Origin: Arsukibacterium sp. UBA3155
GTDB taxonomy: Bacteria; Pseudomonadota; Gammaproteobacteria; Enterobacterales; Alteromonadaceae
Assembly (NCBI GenBank): GCA_002364615.1
Contig: DEYP01000013.1
Coordinates: 1 to 64,000 of the forward strand
DNA: 64,000 bases
Reading direction: 5' to 3'
Position numbers and translations under genes: made by a program. Numbering within the stretch: the stretch's first letter is position 1; each line of letters begins with the position of its first letter. This document shows, piece by piece, positions 11,416 through 61,492 of the stretch. Below the pieces are notes generated by a model that saw only the letters and a list, made by a program, of their open reading frames with translations, was not told the origin of the DNA and did no database searches.

Positions 11416-12584
11416 CCGTGCATGTGTGTCATATCCTCTGGAGTTTTCGTACCGGCGGCCTGGAAAATGGTGTGGTTAATTTAATTAACCAGCTAAAGCC
11501 TGACGAGTTTCGACACAGCATCATCTGCTTAACCGATTATGATCCTGCTTATTTTCAGCGAATAACCCGGCAGAATGTCCAGATATATTGCCTGAATAAG
11601 CGCCCGGGCCACGATATCAGCTCATTTTGGCGTTGCTTCAAGTTAATTCGTCAGCTTAAACCCGATGTTTGCCATAGTCGGAATTTAGCGGCAATGGAAT
11701 ACCAGTTGCCTGCGACGCTGGCCAGAGTGCCACAGCGAATCCATGGCGAACATGGTTGGGACTTAACAGATCTCGCTGGGCAGAATAAAAAATATGTCAT
11801 GTTAAAACGGCTGTTTAAAGCCATTATTCAGCGCTATATTTCGCTGTCGCGCGAAGGCCTGAACTACCTGCAACAGCGCATTGGGGTTGCAGCTGAGCGC
11901 ATAACGCTTATCTGTAACGGTGTCGACACTGAGCGCTTTCAACCGGCAACACGGGCTACTTCCACACTACCTGCAATCCTGGCTGAGTCAGACCGGCTTA
12001 TTTTTGGCAGCGTCGGCAGGATTGCTGCGGTTAAAAATCAACAACTACTGGTCGCCGCTTATATTGCGTTATGCCAGCAGCACGCCACTTTTAAGGCCAA
12101 TACCGCGCTGGTGATTATCGGCGATGGCCCGACCCAAACTGAATTGCAACAGCAACTGGCCACGGCTGGCCTTGCTGACCAAAGCTGGTTACCTGGCGAT
12201 CGCAGCGATATTGCCACACTTTTGCCCGGTCTCTCGGTATTTGTGTTGCCCTCGCTGGCAGAAGGCATATCCAATACCATACTGGAAGCAATGGCCTGTG
12301 GTCTGCCCGTTATTGCCAGCAACGTCGGTGGCAACCCTGAACTGGTGAGCACTGAGCGAAAAGATGCTGAGCAGCCAGGCACAGAGCCAACAGGCTGGTT
12401 ATTTAACAGCAATAACCAATCACAACTGCAGCAGCTAATGCTGCAATGTCAGCAAGCGCCTGCCAGGCTGAAAATACTCGGTGACAATGCAAGAGCTTGC
12501 GCAGAGCAGAAATTTAGTCTTGATACCATGGTCAGCGCCTATCGGCGCCTGTATCTTGATAATAATAAACAACAGGAAGGTTAA
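11412..12584 (+). CDS. Family 4 glycosyltransferase, XrtA system
   Basis: A 390-aa GT-B glycosyltransferase (TIGR03088-type, GT4). The N-terminal acceptor domain starts HILWSFRTGGLENGVVNL. The C-terminal donor domain has GSVGRIAAVKNQ, VIIGDGP, and the GT4 signature PSLAEGISNTILEAMACG with Glu residues that bind the nucleotide sugar. It overlaps xrtA by 4 nt. The donor sugar cannot be read from the sequence. Confidence 0.94.
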   Translation: MTVHVCHILWSFRTGGLENGVVNLINQLKPDEFRHSIICLTDYDPAYFQRITRQNVQIYCLNKRPGHDISSFWRCFKLIRQLKPDVCHSRNLAAMEYQLPATLARVPQRIHGEHGWDLTDLAGQNKKYVMLKRLFKAIIQRYISLSREGLNYLQQRIGVAAERITLICNGVDTERFQPATRATSTLPAILAESDRLIFGSVGRIAAVKNQQLLVAAYIALCQQHATFKANTALVIIGDGPTQTELQQQLATAGLADQSWLPGDRSDIATLLPGLSVFVLPSLAEGISNTILEAMACGLPVIASNVGGNPELVSTERKDAEQPGTEPTGWLFNSNNQSQLQQLMLQCQQAPARLKILGDNARACAEQKFSLDTMVSAYRRLYLDNNKQQEG

Positions 12585-12588
12585 ACAG

Positions 12589-14487
12589 ATGTGCGGTATT
12601 GCCGGAATTTTACAGCTAAATAACACAGATCAGGTTAACCAGAACGTATTAAAAGTAATGAATACTGTGCAGTCCCATCGTGGGCCGGACGATGATGGTT
12701 ATCATTTTGAGGCGGGTATTGGCCTGGCACATCGTCGTCTATCCATAATTGACATTGCTGGCAGCCACCAACCGCTATTTAATGAAACCGGTGACGTTGC
12801 CGTGGTATTCAACGGTGAAATCTATAACTTCGCTGAGTTAACCGTGGAATTAAAAGCCCGCGGCCATATTTTTTCTACCCATGGTGATACTGAAACTATC
12901 GTCCACGCCTGGGAAGAATGGGGCGTAGCCTGTGTTCAGCATTTTCGTGGCATGTTTGCTTTTGCTATCTGGGATCGGAATAAACAGCAGCTGTTTATGG
13001 CACGGGACCGGATGGGCATTAAACCGTTCTTCTACAGTCTTTTGCCCAGCGGCGAATTTTTGTTTGGCTCAGAATTAAAAGTTCTGACCGCCCATCCTGA
13101 CTTTGACAAAAGCTTGTACTATCAGGGCATTGAAGACTACTTTACCTTTGGCTACATTCCAGAGCCGCATACAATTTATGCCAATGCTTACAAACTAAAT
13201 CCGGGACATTATCTGTTACTGGATAAAACCCAAGCCACCACGCTTCAGCAAACTCAGTACTGGGATATCGACTTCAGTCAGGCAGTGCTAACCGAGCAGC
13301 AGGTGAAGTCAGAGTTATTGGATCGTTTAAAGGAAGCAGTAGATATCCGGATGATTGCCGAAGTGCCACTGGGTGCGTTTTTGTCCGGCGGCGTCGACTC
13401 CAGTGCCATCGTCGCGCTGATGGCCCAGTTACAGCAAGATAACCCGGTTAACACCTGCTCCATCGGCTTTGATGATCAGCAGTTTGACGAAAGTGATTAC
13501 GCCAGTCAGGTCGCCAGACAGTATCAGACCAATCATCGCAGTGGCATGGTCGATCGCAATGACTTCTCCTTAATAGATAAACTGGCTGCACTGTACGATG
13601 AGCCTTACGCCGACAGCTCTGCTATGCCAACTTACCGGGTATGTCAGTTGGCCAGAAAACATGTAACCGTAGCCCTTTCCGGTGATGGCGGGGATGAACT
13701 GTTTGGTGGTTACCGGCGCTACCGTTATCAGCTGCATGAAGAAAAAATGCGCGGCATTATGCCGCAAGCTATCCGCCAGCCGCTATTTGGCACCCTGGGT
13801 AATGTCTATCCAAAACTGGACTGGGCGCCACGGTTTGTGCGGGCAAAAACCACCTTTCAATCACTGGCTATGAATGCCGTTTCCGGTTACTGCAATACCA
13901 TGTCAATTATGCGTGCAGACGCCAGAGCAGCGTTGTTTTCGCCTAAGCTTAAGCAAAAACTGGGCGGCTATCAGTCGGTAGAAGTATTTAAACGTCACGC
14001 GGCTAATGCCAACACAGATGATCCATTAAAATTAGTACAGTATCTGGATATGAAAACCTATCTGGTCGGCGATATCCTGACCAAGGTAGACCGGGCCAGT
14101 ATGGCGCATTCATTGGAAGTCAGGGTGCCGTTGCTCGATCATAAATACGTGGAATGGGCCAGTCGCCTGCCGAGCGCCATGAATATTCGCGGCAATGAGG
14201 GCAAAGCAGCGTTTAAGCAAGCGCTGGAGCCGCACTTACCGCACGACATTCTGTATCGTAAAAAAATGGGCTTCGCAGTACCACTGGCGGGTTGGTTTCG
14301 CGGCCCGTTAAAGCAAACCCTGCAACAAGCGTTAAATTCTGAAGCGCTGGCCGATTCAGGCTTATTTAATCAGCAACATATTCAGCAACTGTATCAACAG
14401 CATATCAGCGGTAAACGCGACCATAGCTCGGCATTATGGACCCTGCTGATGTTTTCTCAGTTCTATCGTCAGCAATTGGGGGGCTAG
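12589..14487 (+). CDS. Asn-synthetase-like amidotransferase 1, XrtA system
   Basis: A 632-aa, two-domain enzyme (TIGR03108-type). The N-terminal glutaminase begins MCGIAG with the nucleophile Cys2, and contains SHRGPDD and FNGEIYN. The synthetase domain has the PPi-loop SGGVDS (266-271) and the ALSGDGGDELFGGY motif. It is expected to use Gln and ATP to amidate a carboxylate, perhaps a uronic acid in the glycan. The start at 12589 is fixed by Cys2 and an AGGAAGG site; upstream in-frame starts would displace Cys2. It is followed within 2 nt by a second enzyme of the same class. Confidence 0.95.
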   Translation: MCGIAGILQLNNTDQVNQNVLKVMNTVQSHRGPDDDGYHFEAGIGLAHRRLSIIDIAGSHQPLFNETGDVAVVFNGEIYNFAELTVELKARGHIFSTHGDTETIVHAWEEWGVACVQHFRGMFAFAIWDRNKQQLFMARDRMGIKPFFYSLLPSGEFLFGSELKVLTAHPDFDKSLYYQGIEDYFTFGYIPEPHTIYANAYKLNPGHYLLLDKTQATTLQQTQYWDIDFSQAVLTEQQVKSELLDRLKEAVDIRMIAEVPLGAFLSGGVDSSAIVALMAQLQQDNPVNTCSIGFDDQQFDESDYASQVARQYQTNHRSGMVDRNDFSLIDKLAALYDEPYADSSAMPTYRVCQLARKHVTVALSGDGGDELFGGYRRYRYQLHEEKMRGIMPQAIRQPLFGTLGNVYPKLDWAPRFVRAKTTFQSLAMNAVSGYCNTMSIMRADARAALFSPKLKQKLGGYQSVEVFKRHAANANTDDPLKLVQYLDMKTYLVGDILTKVDRASMAHSLEVRVPLLDHKYVEWASRLPSAMNIRGNEGKAAFKQALEPHLPHDILYRKKMGFAVPLAGWFRGPLKQTLQQALNSEALADSGLFNQQHIQQLYQQHISGKRDHSSALWTLLMFSQFYRQQLGG

Positions 14488-50946: not shown

Positions 50947-51050
50947 TAAAACATTTGACTAGCATCCCTGCTTTACAGGCGACGTCAGAATAATTTACAA
51001 CCACTGGCAACCATCATTAAAATAACCAATAAAAACAAATACATAAAAAG

Positions 51051-51066
51051 TGGCCCAAAAAGTGCA
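51051..51066 (+). promoter_or_regulatory. sigma-54 promoter of the PEP-CTERM gene
   Basis: TGGCCCAAAAAGTGCA matches the sigma-54 consensus TGGCACG-N4-TTGCA at nearly all informative positions, with GG and GC exactly 10 bp apart. The predicted start is near 51077, giving a 5' leader of about 53 nt with TAAGGAG before ATG 51130. Known for the family: PEP-CTERM genes can be driven by RpoN with PrsK/PrsR. Confidence 0.8.
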
Positions 51067-51129
51067 ATGTATTACAAGAATGCGAATGCTATAAGTAGTT
51101 CGCCCTTTTGTTCGATTAAGGAGAAGTAT

Positions 51130-51930
51130 ATGAACAAGTTTTGTAAGGGTATGCTGGCAGGTACAGCTTTGTTAATTGCTCCTTTTACCCAAGCTGCGGT
51201 AATTGAATGGGCGTATACTGTAACAACAGAATGGACATCGGCCACGTTTACTAACGGAGGCGCTAGCGCCAATGCTACCGAAAATAATACGCTGATTAGC
51301 TGGGGTAGTGCGAGCGGTGACCACACCATGCTTGGCCAGCGGGCTGCTGATTCACGCAGTGCCTTAGAAATTACAAATTCAACTGCTACAGGTAATGTGT
51401 TTACCAACGATTTAACGCCAGAAGCAACGAACACAATTACCCACTTCAATAATACGCTGGCTAGTAGTTTCGATACGTTAACAGATGCTAATCTGCGGAC
51501 AACATTAAACTTGACGCCTGTTAACCCGGTAGGCCCGGCATTACCGGCATTAATGACCGACTTTACAATTGATTTTATTGAAACGAATAACTTTTTAGCC
51601 TGTACCTTTCCAAGCAGTTCATTTTGTGATGATATTTTTATTCTTCAGGTAGGTGCGCTGACTTCGTCTTTCAACTACGAAGGCGTTAATTATTTCGTAA
51701 ACATTGTTGAGTTAACGGGTAATTTGCGTCTGCTACCAGACAGAACATGTGCGACTGCAGGTGTTGCCAACGGTTGTTTTGGTTTCACAACCAGAGAAAA
51801 TGCGTTTACTCCAGCAAACTTTGGCTTTGTAATTACTGCGGCAATTCCTGAGCCGGCAACGTTAGGCGTGTTTGGCCTGGGTCTGTTAGGCTTAAGCATT
51901 TTTGGCCGTCGTCGTCAAATTAAAAAGTAA
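51130..51930 (+). CDS. PEP-CTERM sorting-domain protein (THxN type)
   Basis: A 266-aa secreted protein. A signal peptide (MLAGTALLIAPFTQA) precedes a beta-rich, Thr/Asn-rich body carrying the THFN motif that defines THxN-type PEP-CTERM proteins. The C-terminus is the sorting signal: IPEPATLGVFG, a hydrophobic helix and a basic end GRRRQIKK. It is the only PEP-CTERM protein in the window and the likely XrtA substrate. The start at 51130 is set by AAGGAG and by the sigma-54 promoter; the in-frame ATG at 51067 lies upstream of the predicted RNA start. Its terminator has been split by the mobile element. Confidence 0.93.
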   Translation: MNKFCKGMLAGTALLIAPFTQAAVIEWAYTVTTEWTSATFTNGGASANATENNTLISWGSASGDHTMLGQRAADSRSALEITNSTATGNVFTNDLTPEATNTITHFNNTLASSFDTLTDANLRTTLNLTPVNPVGPALPALMTDFTIDFIETNNFLACTFPSSSFCDDIFILQVGALTSSFNYEGVNYFVNIVELTGNLRLLPDRTCATAGVANGCFGFTTRENAFTPANFGFVITAAIPEPATLGVFGLGLLGLSIFGRRRQIKK

Positions 51931-51944
51931 ATAAGCATTGAGTT

Positions 51945-51963
51945 AAAAAACCTCCCAATGGAG
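51945..51963 (+). terminator. left half of a split bidirectional terminator
   Basis: AAAAAACCTCC, loop CAAT, then GGAG. The stem's second arm is cut off after GGAG by the mobile element and continues at 59800 (GGAGG plus seven T). Joined at GGAG, the halves give an 11-bp perfect stem with a 4-base loop. Confidence 0.85.
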
Positions 51964-51995
51964 TATATAGTAAAAACAATGTCTATTCGCGTGTG
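51964..51995 (+). repeat. left terminal inverted repeat of the GMT element
   Basis: TATATAGTA, seven bases, then ATGT and a GT-rich stretch. The same order (TATATAGT, A/T-rich spacer, ATGT...) occurs on the minus strand at the right end (59759-59791) and at the gmtY promoter (59683-59712). Probable recombinase-binding site. Confidence 0.6.
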
Positions 51996-52035
51996 AGTGA
52001 GTGATAGAGCTTTACATATAACGTCAGCGGCTTTC

Positions 52036-52263
52036 ATTTAAAACGTACACACCGTGTATAATAGTGTGTACGTTTTTATTTGCGCCGAGTCCTTCGGCGG
52101 TAACCATTCATCCATGAATTTTTGTTCAGTGTTTAATTGCACCTTGTGAGTGCGACTTGTTCCAACAAGTCGGGAGAGATCGGAGTTTACGTCATTGGTT
52201 TAGCAGGACGGGAATAGTTGTTTGCGGCAAGTACAGAGTTGTCGCCGCATCCGTGCGGCTTTG
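52036..52263 (-). ncRNA. candidate CsrB/RsmZ-like RNA with four GGA-loop hairpins
   Basis: Downstream of the helicase stop the minus-strand RNA would fold into four hairpins, each with GGA in the loop: 52244-52259 (6-bp stem, loop CGGA), 52153-52172 (8-bp stem, loop TGGA), 52106-52119 (5-bp stem, loop TGGA) and 52083-52099 (6-bp stem, loop AGGAC). All four GGA triplets on this strand are in loops. An intrinsic terminator (52040-52076) closes it. This is the layout of CsrA/RsmA-titrating RNAs. No separate promoter is evident, so it may be a 3'-UTR product. Function is inferred. Confidence 0.45.
52040..52077. terminator. bidirectional intrinsic terminator at the element's left end
   Basis: A 13-bp perfect stem, AAAACGTACACAC (52040-52052) with GTGTGTACGTTTT (52064-52076), and an 11-nt loop. 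T-runs are present on both strands. It ends the gmt operon transcript and also replaces the split terminator for the PEP-CTERM gene. Confidence 0.88.
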
Positions 52264-54435
52264 CTAATTTTGGTGTAGTAGTTCAATCAAGTAGCTATTT
52301 CGCTTATGTGAGTTACTGTGGGCTTCTGTAATAACCCTTAGTTCATCCGAGCTACCAACTATATGGATCTCAGCCTCGGCTCTGGTAATCGCGGTATACA
52401 GCCACGCTCTATCAACGATTTTGCCTTTCTGTAGTGCAATAATGATTCTAGGAAACTGCGAGCCTTGAGCTTTATGTAGGGTTATTGCATAACCCAACTC
52501 CATGCAATCGAGCACGGATTGTGTGACCTCAACTTTATCCCCCGTATCCAGCGTTACTTCACCATAACTTTCACCTGATGAGTCAATGCTGGTAAGCGTA
52601 CCAAGAGAGCCGTTTTGAATGCCTTTATCATAGTGGTTTTGCGTAAATAGAATTGCATCATTCAATCTGATGTTTTGAAAGAACCTCTCGCCGTGCATTT
52701 CAAACTCAAGCCTTCTACCGCTTGGGTTAACAGCCTCTTGGGTCAGTTTATTAATTTCAGCAACGAGTGCCTTGGTCGGTGCCATGACGCGACTATTTTC
52801 AGGTGATTGCTGATACAACTCACAACAAGCTTGAGCAATGTCGCTCTTTGCCGTTTCGTGGAAGTGAATAGCCCCCGTACTTAGTTTTTCAGGCACGATA
52901 CCTTGATTAATGAGCTTGGAGTATTCAGGAATACCCGTTGAGCCTTTCTGACGCTTAACGATATCTAGCATAGTATTAGCAATGGCTTTAGATAGAACGA
53001 TATCAGCCAAAACCTTGCCGCAACCTATAGGTGGTAATTGGTCAGGGTCGCCAGCAAAGATAATACGAACCGATGGGTGAATATGGTTGACCAGGCGATA
53101 CATGGTTGGCAAGTCAATCATACTGGCTTCATCTATTACCAGTAAATGCTTTGGTTGGTCTGAACTTGGCTCAATAGGCTCTCTACGTAATAACTTAGCG
53201 ATAGTTGAGGTGATAAAGCCAATTGACTCATGCAAGCGCATAGCGGCTCTGCCACTCAGCGCGACCGCATGTATTTCAAATCCCATTTGATGGTAGGCTC
53301 GAAGTGCGGTTCTAAGTACCGTCGTTTTACCTGTACCCGCTCCGCCAGTGATACAACTCACTGCGTTATCCAAACACGTTGTCACCGCTTCAATCTGTTT
53401 CTTGGTTAGCTCGTATGGTAATTCACCAACCGAAGAGCAATATGCAGAATTTGCAATTTCGTCATAGAGGTTGTTTTGGTTAGCTAACGCTTTAAGTCGT
53501 TTTGCAACGACATTCTCCATCAACAGTTGTGCCGTTGGATGATAGGTGCCAGTGTCAGGGTTGAGAATGTATTGCGCTCTGTTATGGCCCGCCTTAAACG
53601 CTTCCGTCACCAGTTCCTTATCTTTGAGTAATTTGGTTAGGTATGGGCGCAAACACGCTTGAGTTGTATAGGTGTGGCCTTTCTCAATCTCTTTTCGAAT
53701 AGCGGTTTCAAGTGCTGCGCTGAGCCTCTTGTGGTCATAATCTGTGAACTCAGATTTGAAGTCATAATTTGTGACCACAAGATCGACTTGTTCAAATGAC
53801 ATCCCAAAACCAATCAGTACATACGGATTTTGTTTAATAGCCTCAATGGACTCTTCTCCATGATGCTTCAATAAGCGCTGCTGAATACTTGCTGGTATCT
53901 TGTGATCGGTCATCCAGTTGCAGTAGGCCAGATTCTTATATTTGGCGTAACCCTCAAATAACGCATTGATAGAATCTTCACTCAGGACACTTCTAAGGCG
54001 ATCTCTTGATTCATGAGTGTCTTTTCTAACCGTTGAGTGAAAATCCTTTCCTAACAGTTCCCAGAGTGCTCTAGCTTTACTTTCACCGATACCTTTGAAA
54101 TCACTTTCTCTGGCAATAAAGCGAATAAGCTGTTCACCCGTTTCTGGCAGGCTGCATTCGATGTGCTCTGGTGATTCATAGGTATGCTGCTGCATCACGT
54201 AATCACCGGTTTCCATTTCTTCCATTAAACGATGGCCTTTAACCGACCAGTGTTGGCCGAGGGCTGGTTGAACGGGGATGGCATCTGGATCAGCTTTGAT
54301 GGTGACGTAATACTTACCGCTATTGGTTTTGTGTGAGTTTTTTTCCAGTGGAACGCCACTGAATATCACCATTTTGGTAGAACTGTAAGGAATGCTCGTG
54401 ACACGCATTTGGTCTTGATGGAGTGCAACATTCAT
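52264..54435 (-). CDS. RecD2-like DNA helicase (GMT cargo)
   Basis: A 723-aa superfamily 1B helicase. The N-terminal region holds a helix-hairpin-helix-like part (FIARESDFKGIGESKARALW, ~107-125). The ATPase core has Walker A GGAGTGKTT (364-372), Walker B LLVIDEAS (431-438), GDPDQLPPIG (462-471) and the C-terminal GYAITLHKAQGSQFPRII motif. RecD2 relatives unwind 5'-to-3' and act in repair; several act in phage defence. It overlaps the upstream gene by 4 nt and is the last gene of the operon. Whether it serves element maintenance or defence cannot be told from sequence. Confidence 0.88.
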   Translation of the reverse strand: MNVALHQDQMRVTSIPYSSTKMVIFSGVPLEKNSHKTNSGKYYVTIKADPDAIPVQPALGQHWSVKGHRLMEEMETGDYVMQQHTYESPEHIECSLPETGEQLIRFIARESDFKGIGESKARALWELLGKDFHSTVRKDTHESRDRLRSVLSEDSINALFEGYAKYKNLAYCNWMTDHKIPASIQQRLLKHHGEESIEAIKQNPYVLIGFGMSFEQVDLVVTNYDFKSEFTDYDHKRLSAALETAIRKEIEKGHTYTTQACLRPYLTKLLKDKELVTEAFKAGHNRAQYILNPDTGTYHPTAQLLMENVVAKRLKALANQNNLYDEIANSAYCSSVGELPYELTKKQIEAVTTCLDNAVSCITGGAGTGKTTVLRTALRAYHQMGFEIHAVALSGRAAMRLHESIGFITSTIAKLLRREPIEPSSDQPKHLLVIDEASMIDLPTMYRLVNHIHPSVRIIFAGDPDQLPPIGCGKVLADIVLSKAIANTMLDIVKRQKGSTGIPEYSKLINQGIVPEKLSTGAIHFHETAKSDIAQACCELYQQSPENSRVMAPTKALVAEINKLTQEAVNPSGRRLEFEMHGERFFQNIRLNDAILFTQNHYDKGIQNGSLGTLTSIDSSGESYGEVTLDTGDKVEVTQSVLDCMELGYAITLHKAQGSQFPRIIIALQKGKIVDRAWLYTAITRAEAEIHIVGSSDELRVITEAHSNSHKRNSYLIELLHQN

Positions 54436-54869
54436 CGTGGCATGAACCCCATTTCTGACAAGGTTTCATTCAGTTCGCCAAACCGCTCTAGTTTACCTTC
54501 CAGCTCTTTAACTTTGGCTTTTAGCTCAATGTTTTCAGCCTCTAAGGTAGATACTCGTTTAGAGTCGAGCAGCTTGCGATTAGCCGTGTTGTCGTATTGC
54601 TTTGGTTTGTCGGCATTGTTCCTTGCAGATTCGGTCAGTGGCGGGAGTATACCTTTATCACGCAGTTTGTCTTCTAATGCCTTGAGCGCTTTTCTAAGCG
54701 TAGGATTTTGGTTAAGGGCAGACTTGCCGCAGCCGACCCCTTTGGCTACTTCGATGCGGTTGAGCTTGCCTTTAAAGGCGATTTGCTTAAAGTCATCATC
54801 AGTTTGAGTGGCTTGCCATACTTCAAATGCTTCGAGGTTCTGCTGCGCTCTTTGCTGACCGTTCGCCAT
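54432..54869 (-). CDS. Small HTH/coiled-coil protein (VPA1267-like)
   Basis: 145 aa. Residues ~36-75 (LNRIEVAKGVGCGKSALNQ...) look like a helix-turn-helix recognising DNA. Residues ~103-140 are a leucine/glutamate coiled coil (VSTLEAENIELKAKVKELEG). From memory, proteins of this kind accompany the GMT trio as the VPA1267 family, which I cannot verify here. It overlaps gmtX by 1 nt and the helicase by 4 nt. A TnpC-like accessory role in recombination is a reasonable guess. Confidence 0.75.
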   Translation of the reverse strand: MANGQQRAQQNLEAFEVWQATQTDDDFKQIAFKGKLNRIEVAKGVGCGKSALNQNPTLRKALKALEDKLRDKGILPPLTESARNNADKPKQYDNTANRKLLDSKRVSTLEAENIELKAKVKELEGKLERFGELNETLSEMGFMPR

Positions 54870-55546
54870 TAATCATCTACCTCACCTAACAACTTGCGTA
54901 GACCTGTCGCAAAGCCTCTAGGGAATATTTCTATGTTGTATTCCATGTCTTTTACTTGGCCTGCTTGTGTGGTTTGCCAGTTATGTTTTTCCATACATTC
55001 GTCAGAGATAGCGTAGGCTAAGGCTTGCTTCTCGGATTCGGTCAAGATGCCAGATAGTGAAGGCAAGACTTCAACACTCGGCTCTGCGCTTGCATCAAAC
55101 TGACGTACAGGACGCTTATCAATGGTAATATTCGCGTGCTGTTTTAGCAGATTAACCTCTTTGCGATAACGGTTGCGCTCGGCAATAATCTGACCAAACA
55201 AAGCCCGTACCGCAGGGTCTGGAATACGCTCAAGCAGCTTGTTATCCTGTGGAACAGACTTAGAGCGTGAGGTTGGCGATAACGGCTTTTTGGTGGTTGT
55301 TTTGCACTTTGCTGCCCATGCTTCAATCAAGGTGCGGTAGTGCTTGTTTTTGGTTGCTCGCAACGCTTCGTAACCTGGGCCACCTTCTGCTGCTGATACT
55401 CGCCCCATTTGTGCAATCGAGAAATCACGCTGCCCCGATTCTGTATAGGCTTTCAGGATGTCGTTAAGCTTATCTAGGTTTTTTTGGGTTCTTGGCACTT
55501 TGTCGTCTTTTAAGTCAGCCAAGATGATATCAATATTAATGTCCAT
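54869..55546 (-). CDS. gmtX: Gamma-mobile-trio protein GmtX
   Basis: 225 aa, basic, no membrane segment. The N-terminal half (KVPRTQKNLDKLNDILKAY, GRVSAAEGGPGYEALRA) looks like a DNA-binding helical domain. It is the third gene of the gmtY-gmtZ-gmtX order and overlaps gmtZ by 1 nt. Function of the family is unknown; assignment rests mainly on position and length. Confidence 0.78.
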   Translation of the reverse strand: MDINIDIILADLKDDKVPRTQKNLDKLNDILKAYTESGQRDFSIAQMGRVSAAEGGPGYEALRATKNKHYRTLIEAWAAKCKTTTKKPLSPTSRSKSVPQDNKLLERIPDPAVRALFGQIIAERNRYRKEVNLLKQHANITIDKRPVRQFDASAEPSVEVLPSLSGILTESEKQALAYAISDECMEKHNWQTTQAGQVKDMEYNIEIFPRGFATGLRKLLGEVDD

Positions 55547-58212
55547 TAACCCTCCAATAGCGCAGGTTGGGTGAGATTTTCTAAGCGTAAGGCTTTATCC
55601 GACAGTGCATTCATGCCAGCGTTAAATAGCTTGTGATTAGACAGGTATTCACCCGCTTCGATGTAATTAGCCACTTTACGGTAGCCTTCCATTTTATCGT
55701 CAGGGTCGGCTATCTTTGCCATTTGGCGTAGCATGGCATTACCAGCGATTAGCTGCTGTTTCTCATCCATTTCCATAAAGATAGGCTCAAAGCCTTTCTT
55801 CATCAGAGCACGACTAAGTTGGCGGGAGCGCTTTTCAATAGCAGGCGTCTTACGCAATTCATCCTGCAAGTCAGGGAAGAATTCGGCATCGTCACATAGA
55901 AGGGATAAGTGCAGTAACTCAGACTCTGTTTCAACGAATCTCAAGGCATGGCTAATATCTTGTTCACTCCCTACTGCAATCAATTTATCTTTGGTGTCGT
56001 CATCGTTTCGGGCTTCCTCGACGTGAATGATTTTGCTGATTAGCTCGAAGCACGCTATCCAGTCTTTGGTGTATTCATCGGCCTCTACTTGTTGCTTTTC
56101 ATAGCGGCGCTGTAGAACCTGCATGTCATTATGTTTGGTAAAAGGCGCACCTTGCTCTTCACAGAAGAACTGCTCGTCTTTGAGTGCTTCTAGCTCACCC
56201 TCGATTTCAACCGATAGGTTAGCCGCTTGGTGCGCCTTGTAACTGAGTTGATTAAACTGAGCGTTAAGCGCTGGCAGGTATCGCGCCTCGGTAATAAACC
56301 AACGGCAACGAATGCAGTTTTCAGGGCCATGCGGTACGCTGCCATAGATGCGATTAACGGCAGTACTTGAACCTCTCATCAACTCACCGCCGTTCCAGCA
56401 CCCGCCCAGCGTACTGACTTCATCGGATTTTACGGTGTTGCCTCCGACCAAACATAAGCCAGATGAACGCTCCTCCCAGCCGATGGGATTACGGTTAACC
56501 AGAGCTGCCTGAATACTGTCTTCTTTGTGATAGACCATCTTGCATTGAATTTGTGCTAGTGAGGCATCTTTGAGGAAGTTTCGCACTGACTGCTTGGCTT
56601 TACCCTCAAGCTCCCCTTCGGCTTCACTCATTTTTTCCGCCATCACGGACGGGGTGATTTTGTTGTAGTAGATGGTCATTAGGATACGTGAGTGCCCTGC
56701 CAGTAGTTTGGATATGACAGGTAGTGGCAATTGGGTATCCATCGTGTAGGCAGTTATCAGCGATACACGCAAGCTGTGCAGGGGGTGATTTGTGGCAACC
56801 TTTGCGCCTTCTGGAGTGCCTTCTGGGTAATCCACAACCAGTTTAAGTCGCTCTCCATTATCAAGCGCATTACCTTGCTCAGCGAGCTGGTTTTCCAGTG
56901 TTAGCAAGAGTTGATACCAAAGAGGTGCCAGAGACGATCCCCCATAAGATGGTTTGTATTTGTCATCTCCTTTCGCTGACGCATCCCGAAACAGAAAGGC
57001 GATTTCACCCATGCTTTCTAACTGAGTTTGTGACTTCTGTTTGCCAATATGTCTAGCTAGCAGTGCGGTGCAATCTGTCGGTTTCGCTATAGAGTTATAT
57101 TTTTCCTGCCAGTTACGCAGTTTTTCCAGCCAATATAATACTTCCTCATTCTGCCAAGGGATGATGTAGCCGCGTTCTAGTTCATCTTTATTCTGGTCGG
57201 CGGTTTTGTTGGTGTTGACATACAAACCTGTTGAATATTGCCCTGTCATGGTGTCATGGATACGACGAAAGATACCTTTCCCAAAAGGGCGCTTTTCACT
57301 ACCCAGTACAAAGTCATGCTTATCGTTTAACTTCCATTGACCGCTTTCATAACGCCACGTATCCGCTTCACCGCTGTCTAACATGAACACCTGATAGGTG
57401 CGCAGTGGAAGATGCAATTTCATGAAAATGACCATCGCTTTGACGGGTGACCAGATTTGGTGAAGGGTGGTTCTTTTACCACCTCTAGTCACTTCTTTGG
57501 TGCGCCACACACAATCGGGGTCAGATTTGTCAATCAGCTCAGGCTTGACCTCGAACCAGTCGCCATCTCCACCTGCTTTGCTTTGCCCTGACTGCTCTTG
57601 TGCCCATGCCCAATGCTTGAAATGGCGGTAGTGATAGCTAGGCAGTAACGACTCGCCTTGTGGTAGGTTTTGCTCAATCACCGTCAGTTCCGCTTTATCT
57701 GGCAATGGACACAGAATTTGGCGCAGGTCTTGGATGTAACGATACGGAAGTGGGTTACGCACGGTTTCAGTGTGTGAGCCTTGGGTCTTAATTTTGCTCA
57801 GCGGATTGCGAACCAGTGGTGTTAAGTTGCCGCTATCATCTTTTTCAGATAGATGATGTTCAATGACGTAATTAATGAAGTTACAGGGGTGGTTGATAGA
57901 TCTTGTTACTTCTTCGTGGGCGTTAATAGTTTTTCTCATACTAGCTTCTAGCTCTTCAGTGGAGCAGATATGACCATTGTACCCCTTGAAAAACAGACCA
58001 ATATCAGTTGCATAGGGAGCGTACTCCAACAGGTAGGACTCAAAAAAACTGCCCAACGCTCTACGCTTGTTGTTAACTCCCACATGCTGTGTCGCCATCC
58101 ACTCAGCGGCTAATTCCTGCCATTGCTCCCACTCAGGGCCAAGGGTGGTGAGCATCCATTTAAACGTTAAGTCCGATGCACGTCCGTCACGTTTCTTGCC
58201 TTTTTTTGACAT
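55546..58212 (-). CDS. gmtZ: Gamma-mobile-trio protein GmtZ (recombinase-like)
   Basis: 888 aa. A tyrosine-recombinase-like C-terminal catalytic part is visible: HSLR (His479, Arg482), AGHSRILMTIYY (His507, Tyr515/516). I do not see the first arginine box. A later NCIRCRWF motif could bind zinc, and the last ~200 residues are helical. It corresponds to the VPA1269-type protein of GMT elements. One-base overlaps with genes on both sides. It may act with GmtY as a second recombinase subunit, as in the three-gene Tn554 system. Confidence 0.82.
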   Translation of the reverse strand: MSKKGKKRDGRASDLTFKWMLTTLGPEWEQWQELAAEWMATQHVGVNNKRRALGSFFESYLLEYAPYATDIGLFFKGYNGHICSTEELEASMRKTINAHEEVTRSINHPCNFINYVIEHHLSEKDDSGNLTPLVRNPLSKIKTQGSHTETVRNPLPYRYIQDLRQILCPLPDKAELTVIEQNLPQGESLLPSYHYRHFKHWAWAQEQSGQSKAGGDGDWFEVKPELIDKSDPDCVWRTKEVTRGGKRTTLHQIWSPVKAMVIFMKLHLPLRTYQVFMLDSGEADTWRYESGQWKLNDKHDFVLGSEKRPFGKGIFRRIHDTMTGQYSTGLYVNTNKTADQNKDELERGYIIPWQNEEVLYWLEKLRNWQEKYNSIAKPTDCTALLARHIGKQKSQTQLESMGEIAFLFRDASAKGDDKYKPSYGGSSLAPLWYQLLLTLENQLAEQGNALDNGERLKLVVDYPEGTPEGAKVATNHPLHSLRVSLITAYTMDTQLPLPVISKLLAGHSRILMTIYYNKITPSVMAEKMSEAEGELEGKAKQSVRNFLKDASLAQIQCKMVYHKEDSIQAALVNRNPIGWEERSSGLCLVGGNTVKSDEVSTLGGCWNGGELMRGSSTAVNRIYGSVPHGPENCIRCRWFITEARYLPALNAQFNQLSYKAHQAANLSVEIEGELEALKDEQFFCEEQGAPFTKHNDMQVLQRRYEKQQVEADEYTKDWIACFELISKIIHVEEARNDDDTKDKLIAVGSEQDISHALRFVETESELLHLSLLCDDAEFFPDLQDELRKTPAIEKRSRQLSRALMKKGFEPIFMEMDEKQQLIAGNAMLRQMAKIADPDDKMEGYRKVANYIEAGEYLSNHKLFNAGMNALSDKALRLENLTQPALLEG

Positions 58213-59690
58213 TATTTACCTCGTAATTTCGGATGCTTGCCTGTGAAATAGCCTTGCGGGTCGATGTTGTCAAAGCCATGTTCGACCAATGATTTCCAAT
58301 CTAGCGATTTTACTTTGGACTCAGGATTTGCCAGTTGTAGCGTGGCCTTGTTGAGTTCATCGGAGATTTCCTGTTGCCCTTCGCCTGTGTAGGGAACTTG
58401 AGACTCCAGTGATTTGTGGTGCATACAGCGACGAATGATTAACGGGTTAAGCCCTGAGCGCCTTAATCGTCTGCCGTAGTTATGTCGATGTCCGTGAGGA
58501 TCTAACCCTTCCGCTTTATTCGGTGCTAACCCAATGCGTTTTAGTCCTGCCGCATAGCCTTGATGAAAAGCGTTGAGCGTGTATGGGCTGCCGAGGGCGC
58601 TGTGATGGAATGAAATGAACGCATACGGGTGATGACAATCAATACTGGCTCGGTACTTTTGATAGTCTTTCCATAATGACATGAAGACCATGCCAAACTC
58701 CGTGGGGAACCATTGCACTTGGATGTAATTATCACGATGATCTACAACACGATTCTTCCAACCAATCCGCGCTGTACCCTGCATTTTGATCCGTGGTATG
58801 CGGGCATACTCTTCTTTAAGATAGGCTGCTCTGGTATGCTTCCCACTTCGACTGCGCCAGCCATCAGGTGCTTTACCATCAACTTCGTTGTATACCCGAA
58901 CCACAGCATTATCCGGATTGTAAGGGTCTCCAAACACGTCCGTCACCCAAATTAATAATGCTTCACTTTCTCGTAGACCACCGCCATGCATCAGCAGAAG
59001 AATAAGCTTATCTCTTAGCACTACCCGTGGGTCTTTTGCGCCACCCATTCCGTCTTTGAAAAATGACTCCCAGTGTTTTTCTGGAAAGGCAATCGCATCA
59101 TCTTCCGTCTTGGTGAGTGGAGTGCGCCCCTTCATTGTTCTGGCTTTGCGAATAGTTTTATTGATGCTCTTGTCTTCGATATGCCCAAGAAAATCATGCT
59201 GGTTTTTACGAAACCATGCCGCATAATTTAAGCGTTGTTCATGCGGAGTCGCATCCCTCAAGGGATTCATTGGCTCAGTACCTTGCTTATTAGCAATCCA
59301 GTCAGTAAAAGCTGTCAGCCTATGGATGTGTTTATTGACATGTTCTGTCGAGCTTGGCATCCAATATAAGCCAGACGGATCAAGTCCATCTTCACCGACT
59401 GTGCCGCTATACAGGCGTTTAGCAAAGGTTTGGAATAGAATTTTTGGGTCGTTGAACAAGTCCTTGTTTGCCTCCAGATAATCTAAAAGCAAAGAAACGA
59501 CTTGAATGAATTGATTCATAACGGACGCACTGACACCGTTTGCCTCCATTTTAAGAAGGTAATCCGTTACAACACTCAACTCGCCTTGTTCAGTAAGCAA
59601 CACTGGTAGTTGGCTTTTTATGCCCGTGTTATCTTCGACAACAGTCGCTTTTACTTTTACTGATGACATGTTCTGAATGTCTATACACAT
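58212..59690 (-). CDS. gmtY: Gamma-mobile-trio tyrosine recombinase GmtY
   Basis: 492 aa. The full tyrosine recombinase set is present: Arg240 in GGGLRESEAL, His399/Arg402 in DPHGHRHNYG, His424/425 in RCMHHKSLES, and Tyr434 in QVPYTG. It would cut and join the element ends. ATG 59690 is only about 8 nt downstream of the predicted RNA start, so it may be nearly leaderless; Met8 (59669) is an alternative. The start and promoter lie within a repeat shared with the element's right end, suggesting self-repression. Confidence 0.9.
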   Translation of the reverse strand: MCIDIQNMSSVKVKATVVEDNTGIKSQLPVLLTEQGELSVVTDYLLKMEANGVSASVMNQFIQVVSLLLDYLEANKDLFNDPKILFQTFAKRLYSGTVGEDGLDPSGLYWMPSSTEHVNKHIHRLTAFTDWIANKQGTEPMNPLRDATPHEQRLNYAAWFRKNQHDFLGHIEDKSINKTIRKARTMKGRTPLTKTEDDAIAFPEKHWESFFKDGMGGAKDPRVVLRDKLILLLMHGGGLRESEALLIWVTDVFGDPYNPDNAVVRVYNEVDGKAPDGWRSRSGKHTRAAYLKEEYARIPRIKMQGTARIGWKNRVVDHRDNYIQVQWFPTEFGMVFMSLWKDYQKYRASIDCHHPYAFISFHHSALGSPYTLNAFHQGYAAGLKRIGLAPNKAEGLDPHGHRHNYGRRLRRSGLNPLIIRRCMHHKSLESQVPYTGEGQQEISDELNKATLQLANPESKVKSLDWKSLVEHGFDNIDPQGYFTGKHPKLRGK

Positions 59691-59712
59691 AATACATACA
59701 AAGCACTATATA
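59683..59712 (-). repeat. internal copy of the right-end repeat, overlapping the gmtY promoter
   Basis: On the plus strand it reads ATACACATAATACATA, six bases, then ACTATATA. The terminal copy at 59759-59791 has ATACACATTATACATA (one mismatch), nine bases, then ACTATATA. The copy covers the gmtY -10 box and start codon. Confidence 0.7.
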
Positions 59713-59732
59713 CCCACACTTAAAAATGTCAA
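59705..59732 (-). promoter_or_regulatory. sigma-70 promoter of the gmt operon
   Basis: Minus strand TTGACA (59727-59732), 16-bp spacer, TATAGT (59705-59710). The predicted start is near 59698, just upstream of ATG 59690. Confidence 0.85.
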
Positions 59733-59733
59733 T

Positions 59734-59757
59734 AAAAAAGGCAGATTTCTCTGCCTT
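59734..59757 (-). terminator. intrinsic terminator at the element's right end
   Basis: Minus strand AAGGCAGA, loop GAAA, TCTGCCTT followed by a T-run. It stops minus-strand transcription coming from the FAD-oxidase operon just before the gmtY promoter. Confidence 0.9.
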
Positions 59758-59758
59758 C

Positions 59759-59791
59759 ATACACATTATACATAGTTTAATGTACTATATA
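59759..59791 (-). repeat. right terminal repeat of the GMT element
   Basis: ATACACATTATACATA (59759-59774) and ACTATATA (59784-59791) on the plus strand. It is a direct repeat of 59683-59712 and is inverted relative to the left end. Confidence 0.65.
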
Positions 59792-59799
59792 TAACGCCA

Positions 59800-59811
59800 G
59801 GAGGTTTTTTT
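59800..59811 (+). terminator. right half of the split bidirectional terminator
   Basis: GGAGG and seven T directly after the element. It is the exact complement of AAAAAACCTCC at 51945-51955 and overlaps the stop codon of the FAD-oxidase gene. Confidence 0.85.
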
Positions 59812-61492
59812 ATGGCTGCTGATCAGGGAATGGACTCTTTGATCCCCCGGGCTGATAGCGGCCAGGGCTGATAATATTATCCGGATCTAATGCCTGTTTA
59901 ATTTTGGCACTAATTTTCCAGAATGGCTGCTTGGCGTTAAGTAAACTGGCTTGCTGTGCAAGATTAAGCCGGTATGGCACCCAGCCCTGCTTTAACCCTA
60001 CGCTGACTAATTCGTCCAGGCAGGCTTGAGCCTGCGCCACCGCATTGCTATCAGCCAGGTTAAACACAATGGGAATAGTACTGTCGACCATGTCGTGCTT
60101 TAAACTGGTGAAGGTGATCATCGGTTCAATACCATACTTTGGACAGACCGTCCGAACATGGTCTATAAAACGCCGCATAGCGTCACTTTTCATCGGTACC
60201 AGTGGTGCATACCAAAGCAAGCCACAACCGTCAGCAGCCGGGTTTAGCGCTCTGCTTTGCACAGGTGAAGCATGCGGGTTGCGCCAATAGGCTAATGGCA
60301 ACGCCACCTGATTAGGATAGCCACGCATTATTGCAATGCCACCATCAAGCGATGCCAGCATTTTCCGTTGTTTGACTAGCAAAGTATCTGGCAAAAGCTG
60401 CAACAACCACCGGCCAAATTTAATTAACCAGCTATCGGAAAAGATCATTTTACTGCAGTGACCGCCCGCAAAACGTTTTACTTCTTTCCTGGCGGCTTTG
60501 ACCACGGATTTCTGGCCATACAAGGTACCGGCAATAGTCCAGGCTGGAATATCATAATCTTTGGCCAGGCTGGCAAGCTGTTGATCGGTCATCACCTGAT
60601 GTGCCGCCGGACCGTTTGGGTTAGGTGCCATCATTGCGGTGACCCTGCGCTGATCCATAATATTAACGGACCCGACCACCCCTTCCAGTTTTTGTAAAAT
60701 GGTAAACACGATTTGCTGCGCCTGCTCAAACTGTTGCTCGTCAGCAAACTGCAGATAAAAGGCACAGAATGCCTCTGGATCGGCTTTTAAACGCAGGCTT
60801 ATCTCGGTGACCACTGCCAGATTACTTTGGGTCCATAAGCCATCTAAATAGGGACCAAGCCCATATTTGTAAGTTTTATCGATAAAATCATCACAACTCT
60901 GGTCAAGCTCGGCTACTGCAGAGCGAATCTCAGTGCCGTCTGCCAGCAGCCCTCGGATGCTATTGACTGCGGCAAAATGGTCAGTATAGGGCGTAATACC
61001 GTAGCCCCGCTCCAGCGCATTACCTAAAATACTGCAACCCGGACCGGCACCGGTAACCGGCACCATATACTTAAGTTGATGTAAATCCAGGTAGTCTCGC
61101 AGTTGCTGCTGGGTAACCCCTGGCTCTACGGTAAAAATACCGAGGGTTTTATTGTCGCAGCTAATGGTGTTTAACGCCGATAAATCGAGAATAACCGCAT
61201 TGCCATCATTCGCTCTGGCCGAGGCATAGCCCCAGTTGCGGCCGGTACTGATGGGATGGACAGAGAACACGACCCCGGTATTTTTATGATCAGATGCCAG
61301 GGCAAGTACCTGCACAATGTCCTTTCTATTGCCTATTTTTACTACGCAGCTGGGATGTGCTTCGCTACCTTCACAGTTCTGTTTATAAGCCTCTAACTCG
61401 GCATCTGACGATAACACCTGGCTATCTTTACTTAGTTTCTGTTGCAATAAACCAGCAAGTGCAGCTGTAGGTTGATTAGATTTGGCGTTCAA
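59810..61492 (-). CDS. FAD-linked oxidase of the vanillyl-alcohol-oxidase/p-cresol family
   Basis: 560 aa. The PCMH FAD domain has ISTGRNWGYASARANDG and LDLSALNTI, then the pyrophosphate/isoalloxazine region GAGPGCSILGNALERGYG. The C-terminal part ends LDPDNIISPGRY, as in VAO-type flavoenzymes. It would oxidise an alcohol, amine or phenol; the substrate is unknown. It overlaps the acyltransferase gene by 4 nt (ATGA), so the two products probably act in one pathway. No signal peptide. Confidence 0.88.
   Translation of the reverse strand: MNAKSNQPTAALAGLLQQKLSKDSQVLSSDAELEAYKQNCEGSEAHPSCVVKIGNRKDIVQVLALASDHKNTGVVFSVHPISTGRNWGYASARANDGNAVILDLSALNTISCDNKTLGIFTVEPGVTQQQLRDYLDLHQLKYMVPVTGAGPGCSILGNALERGYGITPYTDHFAAVNSIRGLLADGTEIRSAVAELDQSCDDFIDKTYKYGLGPYLDGLWTQSNLAVVTEISLRLKADPEAFCAFYLQFADEQQFEQAQQIVFTILQKLEGVVGSVNIMDQRRVTAMMAPNPNGPAAHQVMTDQQLASLAKDYDIPAWTIAGTLYGQKSVVKAARKEVKRFAGGHCSKMIFSDSWLIKFGRWLLQLLPDTLLVKQRKMLASLDGGIAIMRGYPNQVALPLAYWRNPHASPVQSRALNPAADGCGLLWYAPLVPMKSDAMRRFIDHVRTVCPKYGIEPMITFTSLKHDMVDSTIPIVFNLADSNAVAQAQACLDELVSVGLKQGWVPYRLNLAQQASLLNAKQPFWKISAKIKQALDPDNIISPGRYQPGGSKSPFPDQQP

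Follow-up and report, generated by a model that had tools for sequence, protein, structure and literature searches.

Loops of bidirectional terminator hairpins as the probable attachment sites of one GmtY branch of GMT elements

The comparisons reported here start from a gamma-mobile-trio (GMT) element of Arsukibacterium sp. UBA3155, found in the first 64,000 nucleotides of contig DEYP01000013.1 (assembly GCA_002364615.1; this whole stretch is referred to below as the window), and lead us to conclude that elements of its GmtY branch very probably have, as their attachment site, the loop region of a palindromic and mostly bidirectional intrinsic terminator, and that they would leave a spacer from the donor site at the end distal to GmtY. 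The element spans positions 51961–59794 (7.8 kilobases), splits a bidirectional intrinsic terminator that separates the end of a THxN PEP-CTERM gene from a convergent FAD-oxidase gene, and carries five genes, all on the minus strand, in the order gmtY–gmtZ–gmtX–VPA1267 family–RecD2-like helicase. Its GmtY, GmtX and GmtZ all exceed the NCBIfam cut-offs, its borders are defined and its site is empty in relatives. For a branch of cargo-carrying elements this would amount to a landing rule, namely the loops of bidirectional terminators on chromosomes and conjugative plasmids alike; relatives of the element are found in marine and enteric bacteria, and insertion into loops would allow many sites to be occupied without gene disruption. 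Insertions would be predictable nearly to the base, and the spacer of about 6 base pairs (bp) may allow transfers to be traced.

In the window, AAAAAACCTCC (51945–51955) and GGAGGTTTTTT (59800–59810, with a seventh T after it) flank the element and are exact reverse complements over 11 bp, as had been pointed out in an earlier reading of the letters of the window without database searches (the sequence-only reading). That reading had also joined the two halves at a shared 4-bp GGAG around a CAAT loop and taken the result for an exact reconstruction of the empty site, a proposal that has to be given up. GGAG is indeed present at both junctions of the window, yet GAG occurs at the left end of relatives regardless of target and the base preceding it varies: it precedes the TATATAGT-type end in all six relatives found by a pattern that did not require GAG, and was also kept in 14/14 pattern matches free to lose it. 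GAG thus constitutes the first three bases of the element itself, so that GGAG is not a shared site and CCAATG is a foreign spacer; the relatives rule GGAG out as the crossover, and we give an exchange at these four bases next to no credence.

By the junction rule that takes its place, and which is set out below, the native host DNA of the split terminator would comprise the left arm AAAAAACCTC (51945–51954), the loop with its closing pair, CGCCAG (59795–59800), and the right arm, GAGG followed by TTTTTTT (59801–59811), and the 6-bp spacer CCAATG (51955–51960) on the GmtY-distal side would derive from a previous insertion site. Since the seven insertions for which an uninterrupted site was read keep the native loop on the right, the empty site of the window is most likely AAAAAACCTC-CGCCAG-GAGGTTTTTTT. 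The arms themselves have counterparts within the genus. The FAD-oxidase gene was looked for in 41 genomes and ten same-genus loci with a close homologue were obtained (L005–L014); in four of them (L005–L008) an uninterrupted AAAAAACCTCC-N4/5-GGAGGTTTTTTT hairpin lies downstream of the gene, while the remaining six (L009–L014) have, by reading, other terminator-like hairpins at that place. The expected empty site was recovered as a similar intact hairpin in four of the ten loci and not in the other six.

The two ends of the element, GAGTATATAGT on the left (GmtY-distal, 51961–51971) and ACTATATATAA on the right (GmtY-proximal, 59784–59794), form an imperfect inverted repeat with about 8 bp in common (ACTATATA/TATATAGT) within 11, and both are alike in relatives, the left one wherever it was read. 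Right ends of relatives run ...TATATAA, then about 10–13 bases, then usually a T-tract. Left ends were located within the loci or by pattern, and by pattern they were found in 12/12 genomes searched (the genome of L091 was left out); those of L062, L126 and L127 were looked for and not found. Scanning genomes with GmtY yielded 22 loci, from which L074, L078 and L083, ending at or before the right junction, were dropped; the remaining 19, together with eight plasmid loci picked for diversity among the matches listed (60 of 86 records) and the window, provided 28 right ends. Five of these (L091, L095, L112, L113 and L116) were without an assigned left end, and the 23 resulting pairs were joined by four from pPROV170-1 and pKAZ2 to give 27 junction pairs, which correspond to 24 distinct sites because three hairpins are used twice. 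In 19 pairs a single contig or record contains both ends, and in eight the ends come from different contigs of one genome; L105 and L109 (G793) were left out of the pairing. Contigs stop at the element ends in L078 (1–7885, at both ends) and L074 (1–3683, at the right end), which would be expected if there were several copies or a circular form. No GmtY relatives were found in phage records at E 1e-20.

Across this sample the inner arms are complementary at 6/6 positions in 25 of the 27 junction pairs (window included) versus 28 of 702 mismatched pairings, and in 17 of the 19 pairs with both ends on one contig or record. A chance match of the kind that the sequence-only reading had called very improbable is thus indeed unlikely, and split hairpins do recur at the boundaries of other GMT elements; six divergent GMTs, considered below, lie in greB. 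Features of an intrinsic terminator (a G/C-rich stem, a short loop and a T-tract) are present in the window and in most relatives, the exceptions being L111, L114, L115, L089 and L095. Terminator-like sites as a class are not clearly enriched around the element, with 13 in positions 51000–61000 against 10.2 +/- 3.4 in shuffles.

Uninterrupted hairpins were read at three sites of IncC plasmids (pKAZ1/pKAZ2, JNE10-2 and p16Pre36), and an uninterrupted hairpin is likewise present in R478 at the IncHI2 site, for which a second IncHI2 record is without the anchor. For the chromosomal site in Vibrio owensii, 13 of 148 Vibrio genomes match, the filled genome included, and one matching genome yielded no locus; a hairpin is present in all 11 other Vibrio loci read; in seven the loop is the same AAAC, and in L149 the terminator is a different one. 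No empty site was obtained for L126, because its flank occurs in two records only. Among the IncC insertions (L110, L139, L117, L138, L128 and L140) three hairpins are each used twice, by different copies, and two of the three are occupied in both orientations; they are possible insertion hotspots. It could be argued that insertion is random among intergenic places and that terminators are what is left after selection has removed the other insertions, given that terminators are probably safe sites and that elements elsewhere may be purged. We regard this as very improbable, since the insertions fall at a nearly constant position relative to the stem and the tracts in many hosts and since different copies use the same IncC hairpins. 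Hairpins as the target class of the recombination system would, as was proposed earlier, explain how the element avoids genes.

The two junctions differ in what they retain. At the GmtY side the native loop is kept in all seven insertions for which the uninterrupted site is known (L110, L139, L111, L117, L138, L116 and L090), and at the GmtY-distal side the spacer is unlike the native loop in all six of those with a readable left end; the length of the spacer is 6 bp in six of eight cases. The first base is C in 14/27 left spacers and 22/27 native spacers, and the last base is G in 15/27 and 17/27, respectively, a composition of the left spacers that agrees with, but does not prove, their origin in older hairpin loops. 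Within IncC plasmids, the left spacer of L117 (p16Pre36) equals the native spacer of L138 (pPROV170-1), a copy of opposite orientation in the same hairpin. L140 (pKAZ2) has as its left spacer the native spacer of the L117 site, and CTAAGA is the left spacer common to L128 and L138, the two copies in pPROV170-1. Some IncC spacers match loops of candidate donor sites, the matches being given here without a computed chance level. Left and right spacers that are reverse complements of one another, considered as a further rule, occur in L117, L077 and L086 and are not general.

We suggest a mechanism in which a circular form would join the ends as ACTATATATAA-[spacer of about 6 bp]-GAGTATATAGT, and in which GmtY, together with GmtZ and GmtX, would exchange strands within the terminator loop region (the loop and its closing pair). 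The two half-sites would be provided by the arms of the stem together with the A and T tracts; the native loop would remain at the GmtY end, and the spacer acquired at the previous site would be left at the far end.

What the recombinase reads in such a site is a separate question. When targets are aligned on the spacer, A occupies positions –10 to –7 in 22–24 of 27 and T positions +7 to +11 in 22–24 of 27, with G/C-rich complementary arms between the two tracts. Columns of A and T at a fixed distance are what would be seen if only a duplex consensus (A-tract, G/C-rich arm, spacer, G/C-rich arm, T-tract) were recognized and the hairpin were irrelevant. Such a consensus would not, however, account for the pairing: about 1.03 megabases contain 32 distinct places where A4 and T4 flank G/C-rich arms, and just 11 of these are hairpins, yet 25/27 insertions have fully complementary inner arms, and tract spacing alone is insufficient, four further pairs being present at 11 of 450 such places (803,612 bases); the thresholds of these counts were chosen once the sites had been seen. 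Moreover, the JNE10-2 site is without both tracts and still contains a 9-bp inverted repeat, and the arms fit their own partner far better than the partners of other sites. Recognition of the duplex consensus alone therefore appears to us rather unlikely.

It could also be that targeting follows the termination of transcription, through a paused polymerase or an RNA hairpin, and not the symmetry of the DNA, and most targets do resemble working terminators. Under one scoring rule that allows G-U pairs, and with thresholds set after the sites had been seen, 66 of 118 terminator-like sites, a set that includes homologous sites and some of the targets, are perfectly Watson-Crick paired and 53 of 118 have at least three of four A upstream, versus 16/16 for both properties among the insertion sites that satisfy the same rule (16/27); if independence is assumed, the binomial probabilities are 9e-5 for Watson-Crick pairing and 3e-6 for upstream A. 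The other 11 of the 27 insertion sites fail the rule, eight because no run of five T stands beside the stem, and L081, L084 and the window because a T run is present with no 6-bp stem of the required kind. The occurrence of targets without a T-tract argues in the same direction, and we consider targeting through termination improbable.

The target hairpins are thus more palindromic, and more often flanked by an A-tract, than ordinary terminators, so that DNA symmetry may be what is read, either as duplex or as a fold. We put forward tentatively, as a possibility short of an even chance, that what GmtY/GmtZ recognize is the inverted repeat as such, in the form of a DNA hairpin that is extruded or single-stranded, the sequence of the arms being of little weight. 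Tyrosine recombinases that act on folded DNA, at sites with imperfect inverted repeats, are known from integron attC sites and from Xer/CTX-phage recombination. Unlike these, the GMT element uses ordinary host terminators of differing arm sequence, and folding is here only a possibility. Were it true, every palindromic bidirectional terminator, whatever the host, would be an attachment site, that is, safe harbours would be targeted by a definition of structure; and if symmetry rather than sequence is read, how a tyrosine recombinase uses a whole class of host sites becomes a testable question.

Several observations weigh against insertion into terminator loops as formulated here. The close relative L115 lies outside any hairpin (4/6 inner pairs) and L089 is imperfect (5/6 inner pairs); in L111 and L114 the inverted repeat is there but no four consecutive T stand at the expected position, and L095, of which only the right end is available, has no T-tract. 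In two of the eight cases (L139 and L090) the spacer measures 7 bp, or 6 bp plus a duplicated C. In L117 the native loop, reverse-complemented, likewise gives the left spacer, which an inversion in place could therefore explain. As to the sample, eight of the 27 pairs combine ends from different contigs, two such pairs, from the two-copy genome G783, were paired by their arms, which favours the hypothesis, and the rows labelled as hairpin in the tree described next include four with the right end only. Finally, neither the circle nor movement of the element has been observed.

A tree of 44 GmtY rows, with target labels assigned by the analyst and six rows left without a target, places hairpin insertions in a single 30-row branch with 100/100 support, made up of 27 hairpin, two weak and one other target. 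A second branch (100/99) consists of six greB rows, and a third of the two rows placed at apparent tRNA sites; the tree carries a long-branch warning that includes L117, the greB rows and the tRNA rows. Judged from these sequences, hairpin targeting is restricted to one GmtY branch. The proposal that this recombinase targets terminator hairpins consequently holds for the branch of the window element, through its junction pairs and uninterrupted hairpins, and does not extend to GMT in general, considering the greB and tRNA-like sites and L115; terminator targeting as a rule for all GMT elements is ruled out by the greB group. One recombinase family would accordingly show a change of target, between greB, apparent tRNA sites and terminators.

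The genome of the window itself (C1) holds one further, divergent GMT, L055, located in greB. Here (12407–12892 and 19285–19620 of L055) the right end carries a fragment of GreB, positions 50–155 of 156, and next to gmtX there is a complete GreB gene (247 bits, above the cut-off), as if the element replaced the gene that it breaks. Five other divergent GMT loci have the same part of GreB at the position of the right end, which with L055 makes six GMTs in greB. When the ends of the greB element were compared with each other by blastn there was no match; at the protein level, however, both the complete gene and the right fragment are GreB. The GmtZ of L055 (13530–17840) has 1436 amino acids (aa) and several N-terminal repeats of some 60 aa, by reading SYAEAQ...GITS...YKECPGLP...EWxGW, that are absent from the 888-aa GmtZ of the window. 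L071 and L072, whose GmtY rows diverge most, are located at what by sequence looks like the 3' portion of a tRNA gene. A broken tRNA was not confirmed by ARAGORN, which detected no tRNA at all in L071 and, in L072, just the neighbouring tRNA-His. The 3' parts of tRNA genes are perhaps a third target class.

A spacer rule of this kind has precedents. In the available portions of the reports on them, SE and Tn554-type elements follow a donor spacer rule of about 6 bp (PMC10214605, PMC9345347, PMC12486829), and SE-6945 and SE-6283 are described with the native spacer by the integrase-proximal end and the donor 6 bp distally, as in the 7/7 and 6/6 insertions here; they too are from Gammaproteobacteria and have two tyrosine recombinases, one of them unusually long. 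According to the same portions, SEs are set apart from the window element by their gene set, intA-tfp-intB-srap. Their terminal inverted repeats are imperfect and 13–19 bp long; the ends of the window element share about 8 bp within 11. SEs are further characterized by leaving no empty site, with copy-out through a nicked double-stranded circle. In those texts the authors of SE-6945 and SE-6283 state that no inverted-repeat structure was detected in attB, and therefore the common spacer rule does not alone entail hairpin targeting. The targets reported there are a few selected places (bcp, insJ, the yjjN terminator region and the yaaA promoter), one SE-6945 insertion being placed just downstream of a terminator, and SE-6283 is reported to act on bcp as the L055 GMT appears to do on greB, by replacing the gene that it breaks. 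Tn554 and Tn552-II, in the sections available, likewise bring in 6–7 bp of att from the donor through a circle (PMC12486829, PMC10214605), and Tn552-II differs in having gene sites as targets and no hairpin class (same sources). Tn554, with TnpA, TnpB and TnpC and its own target site, is likened to the GMT element by description only.

For terminators as targets, a precedent is given by group IIC introns, which, as far as the accessible part of the source goes, insert by reference to intrinsic terminators (PMC7161350); they differ in being RNA retroelements that, to judge from the title of a work cited there, insert after the terminator and do not split the loop. A terminator-loop target is not mentioned in the portions available of the literature that names GMT, and no description of terminator targeting by GMT was found in the open-licence literature searched by target and by names. 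The priority of the observation is uncertain, and the founding GMT paper (10.1038/s41564-024-01840-5) may already report it.

Among the genes of the window element, gmtY (58212–59690, minus strand) encodes a tyrosine recombinase (NF040693, 557 bits versus a cut-off of 340; PF00589), gmtZ (55546–58212, minus strand) a second integrase of 888 aa (NF047926, 1039 bits versus 600; PF13009), and gmtX (54869–55546, minus strand) scores 254.9 bits against NF040692 (NCBIfam cut-off 40). GmtY contains HRHNYGRRL...MHHKS...VPYTG and GmtZ HSLR...GH...YYNK, which by reading we take to be retained tyrosine-recombinase motifs. The order GmtY-GmtZ-GmtX is that of GMT islands, in which defence or offence cargo is common and perhaps not defining. 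The window element differs from them in that no recognizable cargo was found in it: beyond the trio it has only a gene for a VPA1267 family protein (54432–54869, minus strand; NF040697, 196.7 bits, above the cut-off) and one for a RecD2-like SF1 helicase (52264–54435, minus strand; TIGR01448, 367 bits, below the cut-off of 500, with AAA_30 and HHH_RecD2). Cargo in relatives includes a type I restriction-modification system (L110) and CBASS-type genes (L125).

A promoter-like site upstream of gmtY, TTGACA-16-TATAGT (59705–59732, minus strand; 11/12 consensus matches), is only suggestive, because the region has no more such sites than shuffles do. Just within the left end of the element lies a hairpin with a T-tract, a possible terminator (52040–52078; RNA fold z = –4.0), and a left-end hairpin with a T-rich tail was found in six of 11 relatives by a strict scan, which missed that of the window itself. 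Just within the right end, a terminator-like hairpin (59737–59758, minus strand; z = –4.1) reads leftwards towards gmtY, and in 27 of 30 relatives a perfect hairpin with a T-rich tail is found at this place, L082, L089 and L083 being the misses (the sequence of L083 is too short). These hairpins could substitute for the terminator that the element breaks, and may in this way restore termination and shield gmtY. In L095 (9918–9943) the hairpin upstream of gmtY differs in sequence (ATAAATGCAGC-TTTT-GCTGCATTTAT) with the pairing kept, and the same is seen in L117, which suggests that the hairpin itself is conserved.

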